64,000 nucleotides of DNA from Chitinophaga pinensis (GTDB lineage: Bacteria; Bacteroidota; Bacteroidia; UKL13-3), in NCBI GenBank assembly GCA_945860865.1, contig CAMARW010000004.1:124001-188000 (forward strand). The letters are read 5' to 3'. Below the pieces are notes generated by a model, which ran no database searches, had not been told where the DNA came from, and saw only the letters and a list, made by a program, of their open reading frames with translations. Below are positions 7,275 through 19,219 of this stretch, piece by piece. The position numbers and the translations under genes are program-made. Positions within the stretch are counted from its first letter, which is position 1, and each line of letters opens with the position of its first letter.

Positions 7275-10010
7275 TTATTTAATAAACTTGATAGTTTGCG
7301 CACTCTTGCCATTTTTAACTTGGATGAAGTAAACGCCATTGCTTAAGTTTTCAATGTTTAAGGCATGGGTTCTTTTTGCATTAAAATCTAAATTACCTGC
7401 ATTTACCTCTGCTCCCAATTGGTTGAAGATGCTGAAGCTATAATTGTCCTCTTGGGTATTTGTTAAGCTTAAGTTTAATACATTGTTGGCTGGATTAGGG
7501 AATACCATGAAGTTGTTGTTTGATGACAACTCGTTGTTTAAACCCGTTGCTGATTGAGAAAAGATCAATTCAAACCTGTTTTCACCAAAAGAATTTGAGT
7601 CTGCCGTAACGGTAAATGTTAAATTATTGATTGATTTCAAATCATACACTTTATTGATGAACTTGTCTTTGAGTTTTACTTCTGCATTAGCAAAAGAGTT
7701 TTGGTTGCTAAATTTCAATTCATACGTACCACCATTAAATACACCGTTTAATCCCAATGGAACAACTGTTTCCTCTTTTATTTCCTTCATGTTATTCATG
7801 GCCAATTTGGTTCCATCGGCTAAGTATGAATAGAAGTTAATTTCAGGATTTACCAATTTAATGAAGTCATTTACATCATACGCATTGCTATTGTTGGCAT
7901 CAAACAGAACTGTTAAACCATCATAAGCTCTATCACCTATGAAAATATCGATATTCAAAACATCAGGTAAACTCTTTTTAAAATGACTTGGCGGAGTTGA
8001 AGTAACTTTAGATGCTTCTGTAAATGTAATACTTGGATTGGCTGCAGTGGTTTGTACAAATACAGCCTGACCAGAATTAATGATATTACTATTGCCAGAT
8101 CCAGTTCCTGAAGAACCATCGTGGTATACATAAGAACCTCTTCCGGCATTGTTTACATTCCATGTGGCAAAAGTGGTTGATACGTTTGATTTAGTTACAT
8201 TAGCCCAGTTCACTGCACAAGCATAAGGGTTACCAATTAATGACCAACCAACAGTTGAATTATTTGCGCCACTGCCTGCTGCTGCATTTAATGCTGGTAT
8301 CCCAGCAGGAGAGGAGCTCACTGAACCGGCTCCAAACACTACATTGCCTGTAACAATTGAACCAGTTGCGCTTAATATTAGGGCAGCAGAATCTTGTGCC
8401 GATGTATTCAAATTGATCGTTCTATTACCTCTAACCAACATTCTATAACCGGTACCAATGGTTAAATTAGTAGCATTGGTATTTGAAATAGCAGCCCAAG
8501 CTTCTGTTCCTGAATTATAAGTAAACAAAGAAGCCGTTCCCGAATTAGATTGGTCGAAACCATTTTGTGCGGTGGTTGAACCTGTGATATGCGTAGCTTG
8601 CTGCCAATTATTTGAAATAAAGTTGGAGGTATTTACAGGGGAAGACAAGAACCTAAATGCTCTTCTTTTAGGGATAAATCTTTCTACAGTTACATTGGTA
8701 GCATTGCTTAAGGTGCCCGCAATGGTTCCTATAGAAGCCGTTCCGGTAGCGTCTGATTTTAGGGTAACTAATTTACCACCAAAATCTACGATGCCGCCCG
8801 AAACAATGCTTAAAGTATTGCCAGCTGCAATAGTTAATGTGCCTGTTCCGCTTAGTAGAAGTGATTTGCCTGATTGTAAGCTCAGATTTACATCTAATAT
8901 TGGGGAACCGCTTGAAATAGTAGTAAAATTGTAATTGCTACCATTAGGCACTACTCCACAACTCCAATTAGAAGCAACATTCCAAGAGTTACTTGTTGCT
9001 CCTATCCAATTGGTTATTGATTGTGAAGTCATTATTCTATTGTCTGAGCCAGAAGCTGCCACAGCTACAAATAAACCATTACCGTATGTTATGGAATTCC
9101 AAGAATTATTATCGGCTGCTGATGTACGGCTTGTCCAAGTTATGCCATCGGTGCTGGTCATTACTCTGTTTCCTGTTCCACTATTAGCCACAGCTATAAA
9201 CAATCCATTTCCATATGTTATGGAATTCCAGGTATTATCGGCTGCTGATGTACGGCTTGTCCAAGTAATGCCATCGGTGCTGGTCATTACTCTGTTTCCT
9301 GTTCCACTAATAGCCACAGCTATAAACAATCCATTTCCATATGTTATGGAATTCCAGGCATTATCGGCTGCTGATGTACGGCTTGTCCAAGTAATACCAT
9401 CTGGGCTGGTCATTACTCTGTTTCCTGTTCCACTATTAGCTACAGCCACAAATAAACCATTACCGTAGGTTACGGAGCGCCAAGAATTATCGGCTGCTGA
9501 TGTACGGCTTGTCCAAGTAATACCATCTGGGCTGGTCATTACCCTATTGCCTGTGCCAGATTGTGCTACAGCTACAAACAATCCATTTCCATATGTTATG
9601 GAAACCCAAACATTATCGGCTGCTGAAGTTTGGCTTGTCCAATTAATACCATCTGGGCTGGTCATTACCCTATTGTTTGAGCTAGAAGCTAAAACAACAA
9701 ACAATCCATTTCCATATGTTACTGAAAGCCAATTATTATTAACTGCTGATGTTCGGCTTGTCCAAGTAGTTCCATCAGGGCTGGTAATTACCCTACCAGA
9801 ATCTGCAACAGCCACAAATAAATTATTTCCATAAGTGATAGATTTCCAATTGTAATCCAATGTAGAAGATGTAGGAGATATAGGAGTGTGGCTTGTCCAA
9901 GTGGTGCCAGTAGCGCATTGTGCCTGTGCAACTTGCAATGAAAAGAAACTCAATAACAAGGTAAGTAAAAAAAACTTTAGTGTTTTGTTTTGTAGTTGTA
10001 TTTTTCTCAT
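7275..10010 (-). CDS. T9SS-secreted protein with seven 42-residue propeller repeats
   Basis: 911 residues. The signal peptide ends QVAQAQ near residue 31. Residues 35-330 hold seven copies of a unit reading W-x-S-[IV]-TYGN-[NG]-LF-x-A/V ... [IV]-MTS-PDG-xxW-TS. The MTSPDGITW part resembles an Asp box, and seven copies suit a seven-bladed beta-propeller. A shared NWIGATSNSWNVASNWSCG module follows, then beta-rich surface sequence (ERFIPKRRAFRFLSSPV) and a T9SS type A tail (FPNPANNVLNLSL ... NLSNGVYFIQVKNGK). Exported to the cell surface; ligand unknown. It lies between the intact and truncated PID-CTERM genes. The signal peptide and tail make export very likely. Confidence 0.88.
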   Translation of the reverse strand: MRKIQLQNKTLKFFLLTLLLSFFSLQVAQAQCATGTTWTSHTPISPTSSTLDYNWKSITYGNNLFVAVADSGRVITSPDGTTWTSRTSAVNNNWLSVTYGNGLFVVLASSSNNRVMTSPDGINWTSQTSAADNVWVSITYGNGLFVAVAQSGTGNRVMTSPDGITWTSRTSAADNSWRSVTYGNGLFVAVANSGTGNRVMTSPDGITWTSRTSAADNAWNSITYGNGLFIAVAISGTGNRVMTSTDGITWTSRTSAADNTWNSITYGNGLFIAVANSGTGNRVMTSTDGITWTSRTSAADNNSWNSITYGNGLFVAVAASGSDNRIMTSQSITNWIGATSNSWNVASNWSCGVVPNGSNYNFTTISSGSPILDVNLSLQSGKSLLLSGTGTLTIAAGNTLSIVSGGIVDFGGKLVTLKSDATGTASIGTIAGTLSNATNVTVERFIPKRRAFRFLSSPVNTSNFISNNWQQATHITGSTTAQNGFDQSNSGTASLFTYNSGTEAWAAISNTNATNLTIGTGYRMLVRGNRTINLNTSAQDSAALILSATGSIVTGNVVFGAGSVSSSPAGIPALNAAAGSGANNSTVGWSLIGNPYACAVNWANVTKSNVSTTFATWNVNNAGRGSYVYHDGSSGTGSGNSNIINSGQAVFVQTTAANPSITFTEASKVTSTPPSHFKKSLPDVLNIDIFIGDRAYDGLTVLFDANNSNAYDVNDFIKLVNPEINFYSYLADGTKLAMNNMKEIKEETVVPLGLNGVFNGGTYELKFSNQNSFANAEVKLKDKFINKVYDLKSINNLTFTVTADSNSFGENRFELIFSQSATGLNNELSSNNNFMVFPNPANNVLNLSLTNTQEDNYSFSIFNQLGAEVNAGNLDFNAKRTHALNIENLSNGVYFIQVKNGKSAQTIKFIK
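9040..9890 (-). repeat. 126-bp in-frame tandem repeats within the propeller gene
   Basis: Copies recur every 126 bases: CCATCGGTGCTGGTCATTAC begins at 9145 and again at 9271. The units around 9100-9480 differ at only a few positions, while outer units are more diverged. Near-identity at the DNA level points to recent expansion or homogenisation by recombination of the blades. Confidence 0.85.
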
Positions 10011-10556: not shown

Positions 10557-13500
10557 ATGAAAAAAATACTAGTCGCCATATTAATAGGTATGTTTTTTAA
10601 TACTTGGGCCCAAGATTTTGCCTATCAAAGTAAGGATAATCCTTTTTACTGGAAAAATAAAACGCCTTTTGCCGGGTATTGGCAGCAAGATGTACAATAT
10701 ACTATTCAGGCAATTTTAGATGATAAAACCGATGTTTTATCGGCCAGCCAAACCTTAATTTATACTAATAACTCGCCTGATACGCTCTTATTTTTATATT
10801 TCCATGTGTATCAAAATGCTTTCTTAAAAGGTGGCTACTTAGAACAGCTCAATTTGGCAAATGGGTTCAAACAGAAGTTTGGTAAATATGAGTTAGCGGG
10901 CAAAGGTACAGAGATTGGAAAGGTTAACGTGAATGGTAAAAATGCTAAGCATACCATAGATTTTTCTATTATGAAAGTGTTTTTGGCTGAACCAATATTG
11001 CCTAATAGTCAAGCCACTATTGAATTAGATTTTAAAACCTATTTTGATAATGGGGGTAATCAACGCAGGCGCATGAAGATGTTTACTGATAATGCCGGTA
11101 ATAAGCAATATGATGTGGTACATTGGTACCCGCGCATTTGTGTGTATGATAGGAAGTTTGGGTGGGAAACCGACCAACATTTGGGTAAAGAATTTTATGG
11201 CGATTTTGGCGAATACCTGGTATCTTTAACCCTGCCCAATCACTATATTATGGATGGAACGGGTGAGCTTCAAAATGAATCTGAAGTTTTGCCTAAAGAG
11301 CTGCGCAATAAGTTAGACCTAAAGAATTTTAAAAGCAAGCCTTGGGAAGAAAAAGCGAGTGTGCTTATTGAACCCAATGGAACTTTTAAAACTTGGAAAT
11401 ACAGGTCGGTAAATACTCACGATTTTGCTTGGGTTTGCGATCCAACTTTTAGGTTAGACGAGGTGGTTCTGCCCATGCCTGGTAATCCGAGAGGGGAGGT
11501 GCGTTGCATTGCTCTGGTGCAAGAACCGCATGCCAGTGGTTGGTTAGATGCAGCTTCATTTAATGCTAAAATAATTGAAACGTACAGCAAATATTTTGGA
11601 ACCTATGCCTATCCAAAAATGATTGTGGCCGATGCGCGAGAGGGAATGGAGTACCCAATGATTACGCTAGATAACGGACGTAGTCCGGGTTATTACGGAT
11701 TATTCTCACACGAAATTGCACACAATTGGTTTTTTGGAATGGTGGGCACCAATGAAACATACAGAGCCAGTTTAGATGAAGGCTTTACGCAGTTTTTAAC
11801 GCATTGGGCCATGAGCAGGTTAACGCGTGAAGTAAAACAAGTGAAAACCAAATCGCCTTGGGTTAACAAGTATTATAAGCCAATGCCAATATTGGATCAA
11901 ACCGTAATAATGGGTTATTTAAGAGATGCCATAAATAATAACGATATGCCTTTAAATACACATAGCGATGATTTTAATGGCGCATTAAACCATGGTGGTG
12001 GTTACGGACATGTTTATTATAAAACAGCCACTATGTTGTACAACCTGCAATATGTGCTGGGCGATGAGCTTTTTTTGAAAGCCATGCAACATTATTTTAA
12101 TCAGTGGAAAATGGCGCATCCTTATACCGAGGATTTTAGGAACAGCATAACGCAATACACCAAGGTAGATTTGAATTGGTTTTTTGACCAGTGGCTAGAA
12201 ACTACCAAAAACATTGATTATGGCATTAAAAAGGTGAAATATAAAAACGATACTTTGCAAATAGAATTGATGCGAAAGGGTTCTATGCAAATGCCGGTAG
12301 ATATTTTAATTGTAGCCGAAGATTCTTCGCACACTAAAATAACTGTTCCTAATAAATATTTTGCGAAATCAGATTTTGGCAAAGTCGCACCCGTTTGGCA
12401 TGGTTGGGGATTATTAAATCCAACTTATACGCTTAGTTTGCCCTACACTAAAAAAGTGGCCAATGTTATCATTGATCCAAGCAAGCGCTTGGCTGATATA
12501 AACATGCTAGATAATAGTTTAAAATGCCCTGTTCTATTTACTTTCGATCATCAAATCAATAACCCTTTAGATAGACATCATTACTTGTTAAAATGGCGAC
12601 CAGATGTGTGGTTCAACAACTATGATGGACTTAAATTAGGCTTGCATGCAAACGGCCAATACATGAAACAAAAACATGTTTTTAGCGCCACTGTTTGGTA
12701 TAATTCTGGCTGGCTGAACCAACGCAACGTAAATCTTTACAATGCCGAAACCGAAATTTTGCCCATACATTATACGGCCAATTATAAACACAGATTTGCT
12801 AAGTTTACAGATGTATTTGCCCAAAGCGCTTTATTAGATGGTTTGAACCGAAATACCCTAGGAGTTGCTTGGCAAAAGGGCGCGAACGGATTTAAAATTT
12901 TTGCCAAAAGCTTGCATAGAAACCAAAGATATTATTTACCTGCCTATCAAAATGCAGCAGTTTCTGTGGGCAATTTAATGCCAAACCTTAGCTCACACCA
13001 TCAGTTTAATAATACCCTAAACCTTGGCTATGAGCGTTTATTTGGTTATGCAAAAGGCAATGCCAAATTGCAGCTAAATGTAAAGACAGCCTTGTTGGGT
13101 TCAGACTTTAATTATTCTGGTGCAGATTTGCAATTGATTCAGAGTCACCCAATAGCTAAATTGGAGTTGCGCTCTAGGTTTTATGCCGCTGTTTTAACAG
13201 GAGATATTGCGCCCGAATCGCAATTGTATTTAGCAGGCGCCAACCCAGAAGAAATGTTCGAAAACAAATACCACCGTAGCGCCGGAATGCTTCCGGCCGA
13301 ATGGTTTAGTTATGGCCAAATAGCTAATAGTTACCATGCAGCAGGCGGTTTAAATTTAAGAGGCTATGCTGGCTATTTGGTGCCAATTATGGATGGGTTT
13401 AGTCAAACTTATTTGTACCGTGGTAATGCAGGCGCATCTTGCAATTTAGAATTAGATTATGATAAACTTATTCCGTTAAGGTTAGGTAAGCTTAGCAATT

Positions 13501-13787
13501 ACTTTAGCCTAGATGCTTACCTGTTTTTAGATGCCGGAATACTGGGTTCACAAACAAGTGTAAACAATGAATTTACCTTGCCGCAAAGTGGCAGAAAACT
13601 CCATACAGGTTTAATGGCCTCGGCCGGACATGGTTTGGTTTTAACCATTAAAAAGTGGGGCGTTTTAGATGAGGTAAAACCTTTGCAAATTAGGTTTGAT
13701 ACACCATTTTTCTTAAGTAATGCCCCTTTTGCTAGTCCAGAAAACCTACAAATGCGTTGGGTTATAGGAATTGGTAGAAGCTTTTAG
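10557..13787 (+). CDS. M1 zinc metallopeptidase fused to a BamA/Omp85-like outer-membrane barrel
   Basis: 1,076 residues with signal peptide KKILVAILIGMFFNTWAQ. Residues 25-550 are an M1 (gluzincin) aminopeptidase: HEIAHNWFFG supplies the zinc-binding HExxH near residue 385, DEGF about 20 residues later supplies the third ligand, and GMEYPM stands where aminopeptidases usually carry GAMEN. Residues from about 660 are beta-rich with alternating aromatic and polar residues. They contain GGLNLRGYAGY near 935, resembling the Omp85 (V)RG(F/Y) motif, then AYLFLDAGIL, and end RWVIGIGRSF with a terminal Phe, as in BamA-type barrels. Inference: a peptidase tethered to an outer-membrane barrel, comparable in layout to PlpD-type patatins. 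M1 part certain; barrel inferred from motifs. Confidence 0.85.
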   Translation: MKKILVAILIGMFFNTWAQDFAYQSKDNPFYWKNKTPFAGYWQQDVQYTIQAILDDKTDVLSASQTLIYTNNSPDTLLFLYFHVYQNAFLKGGYLEQLNLANGFKQKFGKYELAGKGTEIGKVNVNGKNAKHTIDFSIMKVFLAEPILPNSQATIELDFKTYFDNGGNQRRRMKMFTDNAGNKQYDVVHWYPRICVYDRKFGWETDQHLGKEFYGDFGEYLVSLTLPNHYIMDGTGELQNESEVLPKELRNKLDLKNFKSKPWEEKASVLIEPNGTFKTWKYRSVNTHDFAWVCDPTFRLDEVVLPMPGNPRGEVRCIALVQEPHASGWLDAASFNAKIIETYSKYFGTYAYPKMIVADAREGMEYPMITLDNGRSPGYYGLFSHEIAHNWFFGMVGTNETYRASLDEGFTQFLTHWAMSRLTREVKQVKTKSPWVNKYYKPMPILDQTVIMGYLRDAINNNDMPLNTHSDDFNGALNHGGGYGHVYYKTATMLYNLQYVLGDELFLKAMQHYFNQWKMAHPYTEDFRNSITQYTKVDLNWFFDQWLETTKNIDYGIKKVKYKNDTLQIELMRKGSMQMPVDILIVAEDSSHTKITVPNKYFAKSDFGKVAPVWHGWGLLNPTYTLSLPYTKKVANVIIDPSKRLADINMLDNSLKCPVLFTFDHQINNPLDRHHYLLKWRPDVWFNNYDGLKLGLHANGQYMKQKHVFSATVWYNSGWLNQRNVNLYNAETEILPIHYTANYKHRFAKFTDVFAQSALLDGLNRNTLGVAWQKGANGFKIFAKSLHRNQRYYLPAYQNAAVSVGNLMPNLSSHHQFNNTLNLGYERLFGYAKGNAKLQLNVKTALLGSDFNYSGADLQLIQSHPIAKLELRSRFYAAVLTGDIAPESQLYLAGANPEEMFENKYHRSAGMLPAEWFSYGQIANSYHAAGGLNLRGYAGYLVPIMDGFSQTYLYRGNAGASCNLELDYDKLIPLRLGKLSNYFSLDAYLFLDAGILGSQTSVNNEFTLPQSGRKLHTGLMASAGHGLVLTIKKWGVLDEVKPLQIRFDTPFFLSNAPFASPENLQMRWVIGIGRSF

Positions 13788-15147: not shown

Positions 15148-18100
15148 TTATAATTTGTTAAACTTTATACTGGCTGCACCCAAATTAGTTTTAACCAAAA
15201 CCAAGTAGCTTCCAGCTTGTAAATGGCTTATGCCAAAGGTTATTTCATTCTGATTTTTTTCGAACTTTGTTTCTATTAACCTGCCCTGCAAATCAAATAA
15301 ATGAATACTTAATAAATCATTGCTTGCCTCCATTTTAAGGGTTACTTTATCTGATGCCGGGTTTGGAAACAAGCTTAACTGCAAGTTTTGGTTCAAGCCG
15401 TTTAAACCAATAGGTGCGCCAATTATAATTTCTTTGGTTTTGTCTGAACCAATACACCCATTTTGACTGGTTTCTGTAACGGTAATTTTGCCGGTTCCTT
15501 TGCTACCCCAAAGTACCGTAATACTGGCAGTTCCAGCTCCGGCACTAATGCTGCCTCCATTTACAATCCAGTTAAAGCTTGAACCAGCTAAGCCATTTAC
15601 AGAATAGTTGTTGCTTTCGCCGCTTTTTACTTCGTTTATTCCGTTTATTTCGGTGGTGTTTGGCTTATTATAAACAGCTATATTTAATACACTTTTTGGC
15701 GATTCGCAGCCAAATCTGCTTACACTGGCTTCATAAATTCCGCCTTGAGCCACATTATTTATAAATAAAACGGGATTTTGCTTGGTAGAACTAAATCCAA
15801 TTGGGCCAGTCCAATTAAACTCGCCATTACTTACATTATTGGCAAAGAATCTTAAACTATCTCCGGTGCAAACTTTTGTGGCAGGTAAACTGCTGAGTGA
15901 GGGTGCTAGCGGATATTCATTAATAGATACATCAGTTTTACTCTCTTCGCCACTGCATCCTTGTACAATGGCTTTTACGGTATAGGTTCCCGACATGTTT
16001 TTATTGGTGTTTGCCAATAATGGATTTTGTAGGTTTGAGCTAAAATTGGGTCCGCTCCACTGGTAACTTGCTCCAGTAATAGTGCTGGCTCTTAAGATTA
16101 TATTGCCGCCAACACAAGCCGGACCTGTATTTGAAGCCACAGGTGCACCAGGCAATGGGTTAACTAATACACTGATGGTAGATGGAATAGAATAACATCC
16201 GTTTACAAATGCTTTCACAGAATAAGTGCCAGATTGTGCTGCGTTTACGCCTATGATACTAGGATTTTGTGCGTTTAATTTAGTTCCAAATGGCGTTTCC
16301 CATAAATAACTTGCTCCACTTATCGCGCTTGCCGTAAGGTTTAAATTGGCTGCTGCGCAAATCGGACTATTACTGCTAGCTGTTGGAGATGCAGGTAAAT
16401 TACGAACCACAACACTTAATGTTGCCGGGGCAGATTTACAACCGCTATCTGTAACTATTACACTGTATAATCCGGCATCATTTGCAATGGCGCTGTTAAC
16501 TTTGCTCATTCTGTCGTTACTGTTAAAGTTGTTTGGACCTTGCCATGAATAGCTTGCACTTGAACCTACACCACTACCCTGGGCATTGAGTTGAATGGTA
16601 TCGCCAACACAAACAGGAGAATTGCTCGAAGCACTAGGTGCATTGGGAATAGATCTAACTATGGCTTCTGTTTGGCTGGTAGGCGATGTTCCACATCCGG
16701 GAACAATCACGTATACAGAATAAAATCCAGCTTTTGTTTTTGACATATTATTTAAACTTGGATTTTGTAAATTGGAACTAAACCCGTTTGGTCCGGTCCA
16801 ATAATAATTGGCGCCCGTTAAGGTTGCCGCAATTAGTTTTAAACTGTCTCCGGTGCAAAGCGGACTATTATTCCCAATACTTGGGGCAGGAGGTAAGGTA
16901 TTTATAACAAGATTTACAGTGGCTGCACTAGAAGTTCCGCAAGCGGCCGTTGTGGCTGTAACACTATAAATGCCGGCATTAGAATCGTTTACATTATTTA
17001 TTATTGGATTGGCGAGTGAAGAACTAAAATTTTTAGGCCCAGTCCAGGTAAATTGTGCACCAGAAACTCCACTTGCGCTTAATTGTAAATTTTGACCCGG
17101 ACATAATGGGCCGTTGCTGCTGGCAGATGGGGTAGGAGTATTTGCAGTTATGGCAACTAGGGTATTGGCTGCTATGGAAGGACATCCATTAACGGTTGCT
17201 ATAACACTGTATGTGCCCCCATCTATTAAACTTAATCCTGCTCGAGTGGGATTTTGTGTGCTGGCTGTATATCCGTTTGGACCACTCCAATTGTAAGTGG
17301 CATTGGCAATTAAACTAGCTGTTAAACTTAGTGTTTGTCCAACGCAAAGCGGACCATTATTACCAGCGTTTGGTGCCGTTGGAATATTGTTTACCACTAC
17401 ATTGGTTGAAGATGGTAGACTGCTGCAACCATTTTGGGTAAGAATAACAGTGTAATTTCCGCTAAACGAATTTAATACAGCAGTTCTAACAGGGTTTTGT
17501 TGGGTAGACGAAAAATTGTTTGGGCCAGTCCAGTTATAGGCAGCAGTAGCTGGACCACTAGCGCTTAAGTTTAAATTTTGTCCCACACATAGCGGTCCAT
17601 TACTAGTAATACTTGGTGAAACAGGGATATTGTTAACCACAATAAGTGTGGTAAATGGTCCCATATTAGTGCAACCAGGTGCAGAAATGATTACTTGATA
17701 GGTTCCAGAATCTAGTTTAGTTACACCGCTTTTAGTTGGCGTTCTGGAGCTGGCGGTAAATCCATTAGGTCCCGACCAAGTATAGCTCGCATTGTTAATA
17801 TCTGTAGCTTGCAAACTTAGGTTCTGTCCAACACAAAGTGGTCCATTTCCATTAGCAGAATAACTGCTTATAACACTTGCATAAGTAGTTGCAACCGAAG
17901 AAGAACATTGACCAATTACTGTAGTAACAGAATATAGTCCAGATGCGCCAACGCCTGCCCCTGCAATACTTGGGTTTCTTTGGGTAGAACTAAATCCATT
18001 GGGCCCGGTCCATATATAGCTAGCATTTGGAACACTATCTGCTTGCAGTTGAAGGGTTCCTCCGGCGCAAACCGGACTATTATTATAGGCATTTGTTGGT

Positions 18101-19107
18101 GCGGGTGTTTGGTAAATTTCCTTTGTTATTTCATCTGCACAACCACTCATCCAGCCATACAAAGTATCATATAGGCGAACTGGGTAAGTTACATTGTGAT
18201 TATAGGTTCTAACACCATTTATGGCAAAAAAGTTACCCGTAGAATCGCCATAATTCCACTGACAACTAAATTGAGGGATATTAAAAAATGCCCTAGTATT
18301 ATAAAATCTATTGAATAAAACTGCACTCGATGTATTGGTAAAAGTTATTGGATTTCCAACGCTAATGCAGGTTTGGCTTGGCGTAAAATTAGCGGATAGG
18401 TTATATGAAACAAAAGGCTGCATAATAAAATCTGCATTAAAAACCGGTCCACCAATGTTAACATTATAAGAACGAATAAATGCGGTGCCAATTCTTACAG
18501 AACTTAACCATTCTGAACGTCCATTTGGCGGAGAGGCTGTCCATGAATTTGCTACAACAGCAACATTGGTGGCCGATGAGGTTTCAATTGTTAATACGTA
18601 TCCATTTGGATTGGCTGTGGATATTGCTGTAGGGAAAATTGCTCTTTTGCGCAAAGCTGTTAACATTCCACCGCCAAAAGTTGAATCAACATTAACAGTT
18701 ACACTAGCAAGAGGAGTTCCAAGTGGCAAAGAATCTATACCTGCCAAATAAACCCTACAAGTAAGTGTAACAACTGTGCTATTCATGGCAGTTTGCCAAG
18801 CAAAAAATTCGAAACCATGAATGGTTATGTTTTGCGGAGAAGGATACCATTGGGCAAAAGCATTTCCGCTGGTTGCATTATTTAAAGAAACAGTATTTAA
18901 AGCAGTGGTTTTATTGTAGGTGTAGTTTACCGTATCTGTACCACATTGTTTTGATTTGTTTAAACTGATATTTCTGCTGAAAACTGGGTTTCGAGCGGGT
19001 AAATTATCGTAAATTGGTGCAGAAAAACTTTGTAAAGTTTGACCATGTACTATAACACTCAATGCTAAAAATAAAAAGCTAATATAGATTGTAATTTTTG
19101 TTTTCAT
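15148..19107 (-). CDS. T9SS-secreted protein with ten Ig-like/PKD-like repeats
   Basis: 1,319 residues from the ATG at 19105-19107, which directly precedes the signal peptide KTKITIYISFLFLALSVIVHG; an ATG four codons upstream is also possible. After a lectin-like N-terminal region (residues 40-220), about ten domains of 80 residues repeat the pattern NGPLCVGQ-N-L-x-L-x-A ... Y-x-W-x-GPNGF-x-S ... G-x-Y-x-V ... GC. Each has paired cysteines. This is the Ig-like repeat common in Bacteroidota adhesins. The tail (LFPNPASDKVTLKM ... LQAGSYLVLVK) is a T9SS type A sorting domain. Likely an adhesin or matrix protein; ligand unknown. Confidence 0.88.
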   Translation of the reverse strand: MKTKITIYISFLFLALSVIVHGQTLQSFSAPIYDNLPARNPVFSRNISLNKSKQCGTDTVNYTYNKTTALNTVSLNNATSGNAFAQWYPSPQNITIHGFEFFAWQTAMNSTVVTLTCRVYLAGIDSLPLGTPLASVTVNVDSTFGGGMLTALRKRAIFPTAISTANPNGYVLTIETSSATNVAVVANSWTASPPNGRSEWLSSVRIGTAFIRSYNVNIGGPVFNADFIMQPFVSYNLSANFTPSQTCISVGNPITFTNTSSAVLFNRFYNTRAFFNIPQFSCQWNYGDSTGNFFAINGVRTYNHNVTYPVRLYDTLYGWMSGCADEITKEIYQTPAPTNAYNNSPVCAGGTLQLQADSVPNASYIWTGPNGFSSTQRNPSIAGAGVGASGLYSVTTVIGQCSSSVATTYASVISSYSANGNGPLCVGQNLSLQATDINNASYTWSGPNGFTASSRTPTKSGVTKLDSGTYQVIISAPGCTNMGPFTTLIVVNNIPVSPSITSNGPLCVGQNLNLSASGPATAAYNWTGPNNFSSTQQNPVRTAVLNSFSGNYTVILTQNGCSSLPSSTNVVVNNIPTAPNAGNNGPLCVGQTLSLTASLIANATYNWSGPNGYTASTQNPTRAGLSLIDGGTYSVIATVNGCPSIAANTLVAITANTPTPSASSNGPLCPGQNLQLSASGVSGAQFTWTGPKNFSSSLANPIINNVNDSNAGIYSVTATTAACGTSSAATVNLVINTLPPAPSIGNNSPLCTGDSLKLIAATLTGANYYWTGPNGFSSNLQNPSLNNMSKTKAGFYSVYVIVPGCGTSPTSQTEAIVRSIPNAPSASSNSPVCVGDTIQLNAQGSGVGSSASYSWQGPNNFNSNDRMSKVNSAIANDAGLYSVIVTDSGCKSAPATLSVVVRNLPASPTASSNSPICAAANLNLTASAISGASYLWETPFGTKLNAQNPSIIGVNAAQSGTYSVKAFVNGCYSIPSTISVLVNPLPGAPVASNTGPACVGGNIILRASTITGASYQWSGPNFSSNLQNPLLANTNKNMSGTYTVKAIVQGCSGEESKTDVSINEYPLAPSLSSLPATKVCTGDSLRFFANNVSNGEFNWTGPIGFSSTKQNPVLFINNVAQGGIYEASVSRFGCESPKSVLNIAVYNKPNTTEINGINEVKSGESNNYSVNGLAGSSFNWIVNGGSISAGAGTASITVLWGSKGTGKITVTETSQNGCIGSDKTKEIIIGAPIGLNGLNQNLQLSLFPNPASDKVTLKMEASNDLLSIHLFDLQGRLIETKFEKNQNEITFGISHLQAGSYLVLVKTNLGAASIKFNKL

Positions 19108-19219
19108 ATAAATTATCATTTACTCAAATTTAACAGATAAATAATTGCAAATCATAATTTTATTTTAATTTAATAGACTTGATTTGGGAGTGAAACAAAG
19201 AAAAATGGCATTATTTATT

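Follow-up and report, generated by a model that had tools for sequence, protein, structure and literature searches.

We analysed a 64,000-nucleotide stretch of Chitinophaga pinensis DNA (contig CAMARW010000004.1, positions 124,001 to 188,000; hereafter the window, in whose own numbering positions are given). A gene on its forward strand encodes a protein of 1076 amino acids that carries, from the N- to the C-terminus, a signal peptide, an M1-family zinc peptidase, a beta-rich segment and a C-terminal barrel that is very likely of the Omp85 type. Its features are listed below; conservation refers to an alignment of 59 proteins, namely the query and 58 of 80 fetched loci, picked for completeness and diversity.

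10557-13787, + strand: whole gene, ATG to stop, M1 peptidase fused to a very likely Omp85-type barrel, 1076 residues (Pfam, AlphaFold2).
10557-10613, + strand: signal peptide, residues 1-19 (by eye).
10620-12215, + strand: M1 peptidase N-terminal and catalytic domains, residues 22-553 (Pfam PF01433, Foldseek).
11643-11654, + strand: GMEY exopeptidase-type motif, residues 363-366 (invariant in 59 of 59).
11709-11780, + strand: zinc site HEIAH-x18-E, residues 385-408 (H385, E386, H389 and E408 invariant in 59 of 59).
12219-12521, + strand: beta-rich linker segment, residues 555-655 (DSSP of the model: no helix of four or more residues).
12582-13784, + strand: predicted 16-stranded Omp85-type barrel, residues 676-1076 (models, Foldseek, VIA-align, profile-profile comparison).
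13206-13427, + strand: long loop between strands 11 and 12, residues 884-957 (DSSP of the model).
13356-13367, + strand: LRGY, residues 934-937, counterpart of Omp85 (V)RG(F/Y) (conservation, hhalign).
13524-13538, + strand: FLDAG, residues 990-994, in strand 13, counterpart of Omp85 FxDxG (invariant in 59 of 59).
13755-13784, + strand: last strand RWVIGIGRSF, with terminal Phe (sequence).

The initial annotation had read this gene as an M1 peptidase fused to an Omp85/BamA-like barrel, and the elements that it quoted (HEIAH at residues 385-389, LRGY, FLDAG and the WVIGIGRSF end) are all present in it. At the N-terminus, residues 2-13 are helical in the AlphaFold2 model and confidence is low after them. 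The linker segment between peptidase and barrel would be Ig-like.

The enzyme half is readily recognized. In a Pfam scan Peptidase_M1 (PF01433) matched residues 384-546 above its cut-off (E 1.4e-14), and the PepN-type matches in NCBIfam were weak and far under their cut-offs. Foldseek with the whole model gave M1 aminopeptidases only among the matches listed, the best at E 1.9e-21. The exopeptidase Glu of the GxMEN motif and the catalytic Tyr are marks of the M1 family; here they correspond to the Glu of G363-M-E-Y366 and to Y487, and G363, M364, E365, Y366, H385, E386, H389, E408, Y483 and Y487 are invariant in all 59 proteins. Furthermore, HExxH-x18-E is present in 78 of 78 long frames from the 80 loci; a frame of this kind is missing from L022 and L025. 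The catalytic fold and zinc site are like those of the M1 aminopeptidases PepN, ERAP1 and IRAP. Unlike PepN and ERAP1, which end in a helical domain, the protein has a barrel in that place, and the usual M1 motif GAMEN is represented by GMEY, the Asn being replaced by Tyr. With its zinc site intact, the M1 part looks active and would be an aminopeptidase, as far as sequence can tell.

The C-terminal part is a predicted 16-stranded membrane barrel of the Omp85 fold, presumably inserted in the outer membrane. AlphaFold2 on the 59-row alignment produced a whole-protein model with a mean predicted local distance difference test (pLDDT) of 85.4 and a predicted template-modelling score (pTM) of 0.82, in which 16 strands follow residue 675 and strands 11 and 12 are separated by a 74-residue segment holding LRGY. 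Such a pTM, with the larger domain making up about 0.6 of the chain, suggests that the M1 part and the barrel take up a defined arrangement. As the whole-model Foldseek matches listed were all M1 peptidases, the barrel was then modelled and searched by itself. It again formed 16 strands (pLDDT 83.0, pTM 0.82), the last of them paired over just four residues, as in the whole model, and Foldseek against the PDB returned 117 matches with E-values of 0.001 or less, of which the best 50 are all BamA, TamA or Sam50 (best 7nre_A, BamA, E 1.9e-10). VIA-align, which re-examines the matches supplied by Foldseek, placed E. coli BamA first (8bnz_A, Z 20.9, root-mean-square deviation 4.5 across 297 residues), with a fungal sorting and assembly machinery (SAM; Z 20.8) and F. 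johnsoniae BamA (9n2e_A, Z 19.8) further on; by entry title the 50 matches listed belong to SAM or to the beta-barrel assembly machinery (BAM), bar one titled 'Structure of a membrane complex'. The alternating strands claimed by the initial annotation were borne out by the hydrophobic/polar alternation of the barrel strands, 0.477 versus 0.201 ± 0.036 in shuffles and reached by none of 2000, the strands of the M1 part and linker alternating less (0.378 versus 0.259 ± 0.044; reached by 8 of 2000). Its claim of an Omp85-type barrel behind an M1 peptidase thus stood, with two 16-stranded models, the Foldseek and VIA-align matches and the intact zinc site; the contrary outcome it had named, a soluble fold with no barrel, did not occur.

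Omp85 barrels are marked by RG(F/Y) in a long loop between strands 11 and 12, an acidic partner on strand 12 and FxDxG on strand 13, and each of these has a counterpart at the same place in the model. LRGY lies inside the loop of residues 884-957, which we take to be the place of Omp85 loop L6; R935 and G936 are invariant in all 59 proteins and are followed by Y in 52, F in 6 and L in one. E965 in strand 12 (residues 958-967) and F990, D992 and G994 in strand 13 (residues 983-998) are likewise kept in 59 of 59, and the C-terminal residue is F in 56, L in two and W in one. The R, G, E, F and D of these motifs are retained in all 34 rows of a set of 11 fused and 23 standalone barrels, and hhalign pairs LRGY with LRGY, and F-DAG with F-EAG, of the genome's own BamA-like protein. 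In distant relatives the marks are imperfect: (L/V)RGY is unmatched in L274, F-x-D-x-G is unmatched in L246, a fusion with VRGY from a genome of another class (G289), and the C-terminal residue of L280 is not aromatic.

We determined the sequence link by profile-profile comparison of the fused barrels alone (A2), of a set widened with standalone relatives (A4) and of all 82 rows with a reference profile of 10 BamA-like and 5 TamL-like proteins (our own assignment). Against the joint profile A4 scored 87.6% in local and 89.1% in global mode and the 82 rows 76.7% and 93.3%; against BamA alone the 82 rows scored 65.3% and 71.8%, and against TamL alone 7.4% and 0.1%. The control barrels (TonB-receptor and FadL-type) stayed below 1% with A4 and the 82 rows, and BamA and TamL compared with each other gave 97.7% and 99.2%. 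Several results weigh against Omp85 membership. The Pfam Omp85 profile PF01103, the search of which had been proposed by the initial annotation, matches neither the query nor any of the 59 barrel rows, and no Pfam family matched the C-terminal 526 residues; hmmsearch of the PDB with the barrel found no barrel match; and the Foldseek TM-scores of the barrel are modest (0.36-0.50 by query length, best 50 of 117). In addition, A2 reached 4.0% with the joint profile, 0.2% with BamA alone and 11.0% with TamL alone, and A4 gave 3.3% (local) and 0.1% (global) with BamA alone and 21.3% and 0.1% with TamL alone. Taking fold, motif placing and profile signal together, the barrel is very likely of the Omp85 type, and membership by descent is probable. 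Ten other Pfam families, with no outer-membrane family among them, each matched 1-5 of the 59 members at E-values no better than 0.0028, and the PDB search gave a ywmB hit at E 0.15; these look like chance.

The fusion is not peculiar to this genome. A genome-contig scan gave at least 590 candidate stretches, at least 576 of which encode relatives, and the best 80 of these loci made up our set of relatives. By title they belong to Bacteroidota (Flavobacteriales, Chitinophagaceae, Sphingobacteriales and others), and most of them align through residue 1076; therefore the tail belongs to the protein. In 24 of 30 related genomes a single alignment runs from within the first 22 residues through residue 1076; four others (G010, G012, G019, G022) hold partial pieces, and in G016 and G017 (68% and 84% complete) the best matches look like other M1 proteins (33-34% identity). 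In a class sample of 295 genomes, the barrel profile matched 167, which include 137 of the 253 good genomes and represent 80 of the 155 genera; it was without a match in 128. By count, 160 of the 167 positives have a single match place, and the matches listed lie mostly in frames of about 1050-1150 amino acids. In a phylum sample 57 of 296 genomes were positive; apart from the window's genome the positives are of other classes, and the listed same-class members of that sample had no barrel match. The family is thus widespread in Bacteroidota, common but patchy, and mostly single-copy. The divergence of its two halves is correlated (r 0.77 across 1711 pairs of the 59 proteins, no null computed), as expected of long joint descent. 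An apparent extra N-terminal domain in a 1522-residue frame (L244, genome G026) was set aside, the added part being a GC-rich open frame with no coding evidence.

For the gene neighbourhood we took 49 of the 80 loci, dropped L025 and L075, where the main frame is not whole, and viewed the 18 largest clusters of the remaining 47. The largest comprises 12 loci at variable positions, clusters read by eye as nadC and yihY occur at 10 of 47 loci each, and no functional partner stood out among the 18. In the window the gene is flanked by two large repeat-rich, secreted-looking proteins (7275-10010 and 15148-19119, both on the minus strand), whose C-termini resemble by eye the tails of the type IX secretion system (T9SS).

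The barrel also occurs without the enzyme. Frames of 399-497 amino acids were found in 42 of the 57 positive phylum-sample genomes (by count), mostly of one family (f36); at three standalone loci (L168-L170) the gene lies between NUDIX-/GreA-like genes and an acetate-kinase-like gene (names by eye). In genus g10, two genomes that are each 95% complete have barrel-only frames with an N-terminal signal peptide by eye:

L247:217-1551, - strand: barrel-only gene of G392, 445 residues.
L248:172-1503, - strand: barrel-only gene of G421, 444 residues.

Both adjoin genes read by eye as nadC and yihY. Two other genomes of the genus (G027, G447) carry the fusion at the same nadC-yihY locus, and G361 carries it beside yihY. 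No close copy of the M1 part was found elsewhere in G392 or G421, the best matches being 34% and 33% identical and lying in separate frames of 635 and 658 amino acids. The M1 part thus appears to have been lost in place, with the barrel kept, in these two genomes. In G022 (L245:303-2144, minus strand) the barrel stands behind a different, Pfam-silent N-terminal stretch of about 200 amino acids. Furthermore, the protein of G019 (L243:219-3305, minus strand) lacks HExxH and retains the LRGY and YDAG barrel motifs, and is an apparent pseudo-peptidase. Decay of the zinc site was sought in ten further divergent genomes; nine have HExxH-x18-E and the tenth (L275) ends at a contig edge, so that G019 stands alone among the genomes examined. 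Since the barrel is found alone, after loss of M1 in place and with a decayed zinc site, it is probably more than a mere carrier, and the initial idea of a peptidase delivered by its barrel leaves this persistence unexplained.

The strand count is even (16) and the long segments are mostly on the side opposite the two ends, 3, 20, 2, 28, 6, 74, 21 and 15 residues on the loop side versus 3, 2, 2, 2, 2, 15 and 11 on the other, so that by the usual rule both barrel ends would be periplasmic. The M1 part and the C-terminus emerge from the same face of the barrel, so that the M1 part would be periplasmic too, unless threaded outward, and thus probably faces the inner side of the outer membrane and not the exterior. 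Two points count against this placement: the membrane side of the M1 part would follow from modelled topology, and the stretch of about 20 residues ahead of strand 1 might in principle pass through the barrel. The initial annotation had likened delivery to that of PlpD, a comparison that no longer argues for the surface: contrary to the earlier view, the PlpD enzyme domain, when tested in vivo, resides exclusively in the periplasm (Hanson et al. 2024, available text of PMC11116518).

Six M1 matches were found in the window's genome. Two of them (L085, L086) carry T9SS type A sorting domains (TIGR04183), and at E 0.01 this domain is absent from the query, L082, L083 and L084. On these sequences, M1 enzymes bound for the surface seem to travel by another route, the T9SS, and the organism seems to spread its M1 enzymes over several envelope locations. 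L083:64-3177 (minus strand, contig G000:C9) has another beta-rich-looking C-terminal half of about 450 amino acids. Its family of 17 sequences scored 94.5% (local) and 97.2% (global) in hhalign with the A4 barrel and below 1% with BamA/TamL, and its consensus is without RGY; it is perhaps a second, more derived M1-barrel family. Also in this genome, L092:1450-3567 (minus strand, contig G000:C10) lies in a 1139-residue open frame with an Omp85 match of 26.4 bits, above the cut-off, and a part that looks by eye like TolB/WD40, as in the WD40-Omp85 kind of Heinz and Lithgow; a Pfam scan of a 706-residue piece of it gave no match of this sort.

We give a probability of about two thirds (0.66) to the reading that the protein is a periplasmic aminopeptidase anchored on an Omp85-type barrel scaffold. 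The 16-stranded barrel would span the outer membrane and expose its long loops to the exterior, and the M1 part would hang from strand 1 at the periplasmic face, in the place held by POTRA domains in BamA, and may trim peptides or the N-termini of unfolded proteins at the inner face of the membrane. It is plausible, given its survival without M1, that the barrel also moves or inserts something.

A bolder reading, conceivable and on the unlikely side, makes the family an undescribed phylum-wide Omp85 subfamily, in which the barrel itself would insert, export or import polypeptides and a periplasmic M1 part, replacing POTRA, would trim the passing chains, the barrel being independent and the M1 part lost, decayed or swapped. 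We consider it unlikely that the protein is an assembly or quality-control factor, with the barrel acting as an insertase or translocase like BamA/TamA and the M1 part trimming or clearing its clients. The M1 domain can be likened to BepA, an E. coli zinc peptidase that targets LptD at BAM (available text of PMC8423444), and the barrels kept without M1 (the 42 phylum-sample genomes and the two of genus g10), the one decayed zinc site beside intact barrel motifs and the short pairing of the last strand, as a weak seam might have, speak for such a role. It is opposed by the POTRA domain not found by Pfam or in the model, by the 18 largest neighbour clusters, in which no gene of BAM, the translocation and assembly module (TAM) or a chaperone was recognised by eye, by the need of M1 exopeptidases for a free N-terminus, which limits their action on barrel clients, and by PlpD, which shows that Omp85 barrels are re-usable for other ends.

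Surface display, in which the barrel, alone or with BAM, would carry the M1 part outward and anchor it as an autotransporter feeding on extracellular peptides, is unlikely. An N-terminal enzyme with a C-terminal barrel is the order of type V autotransporters, and the organism seems to use surface M1 peptidases, two of them with T9SS tails. However, the long strand 11-12 loop shows good conservation and should enter the barrel lumen, as in BamA, where this loop reaches into the barrel; the model has no helix from residue 548 to strand 1, hence none to fill the lumen from there; an outward route, the T9SS, already exists in the organism; and the PlpD enzyme stays periplasmic (PMC11116518, as above). 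That the tail, which is Pfam-silent, is a chance resemblance in a soluble M1 protein with a beta-rich end, or the product of two genes wrongly joined, is hardly credible in view of the end-to-end relatives at most of the best 80 loci, the barrel-profile matches in 167 of the 295 class genomes, the 16-stranded models and the amphipathic strands.

The periplasmic scaffold reading has a precedent. POTRA domains contain two helices; between enzyme and barrel Pfam found no POTRA in the whole-protein scan, and residues 555-655 of the model hold no helix of four or more residues. The barrel is like BamA, TamA and Sam50 in fold and motif placing and differs from them in that no POTRA was found and that the sequence link is seen only by profile-profile comparison, and unevenly. 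The known enzymes closest in plan are PlpD and its kin (PL-Omp85), in which an N-terminal hydrolase precedes a C-terminal 16-stranded Omp85 barrel and the enzyme lies, by topology, on the side of the barrel ends (available text of PMC11116518). Unlike these, our protein has an M1 zinc peptidase and, by Pfam, no patatin-like domain, and unlike PlpD no POTRA was found between its enzyme and barrel.

According to the available text of Heinz and Lithgow 2014 (PMC4104836), the Omp85/TpsB superfamily is defined by its barrel and has ten subfamilies, and its kinds include PF00149 'Metallo', patatin, WD40, lipoprotein and 'noNterm', with no M1 named there. Compared by description, 'noNterm' (a barrel alone) resembles our standalone relatives (most of L168-L196), and 'Metallo' is, as here, a non-POTRA kind with an enzyme domain, differing in that this is PF00149 and not M1. 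That the Pfam Omp85 profile misses the family may be why, as far as its available text goes, this survey omits it. In the available text of the F. johnsoniae BAM paper (PMC12611786) a term search found neither 'peptidase' nor 'aminopeptidase', and an M1-Omp85 fusion was not found in the literature searched, subscription journals being mostly outside its reach. Within that literature the fusion is a new architecture of the Omp85 kind.

Omp85 proteins are the builders of outer membranes, and POTRA domains are found in the most familiar of them. Here a widespread Bacteroidota family, invisible to Pfam's Omp85 profile, would have a peptidase in POTRA's place. Together with PlpD, this suggests that Omp85 barrels scaffold periplasmic enzymes more often than thought. 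Moreover, relatives that naturally carry the barrel alone or a dead enzyme allow the contributions of the two parts to be tested directly and apart from each other.

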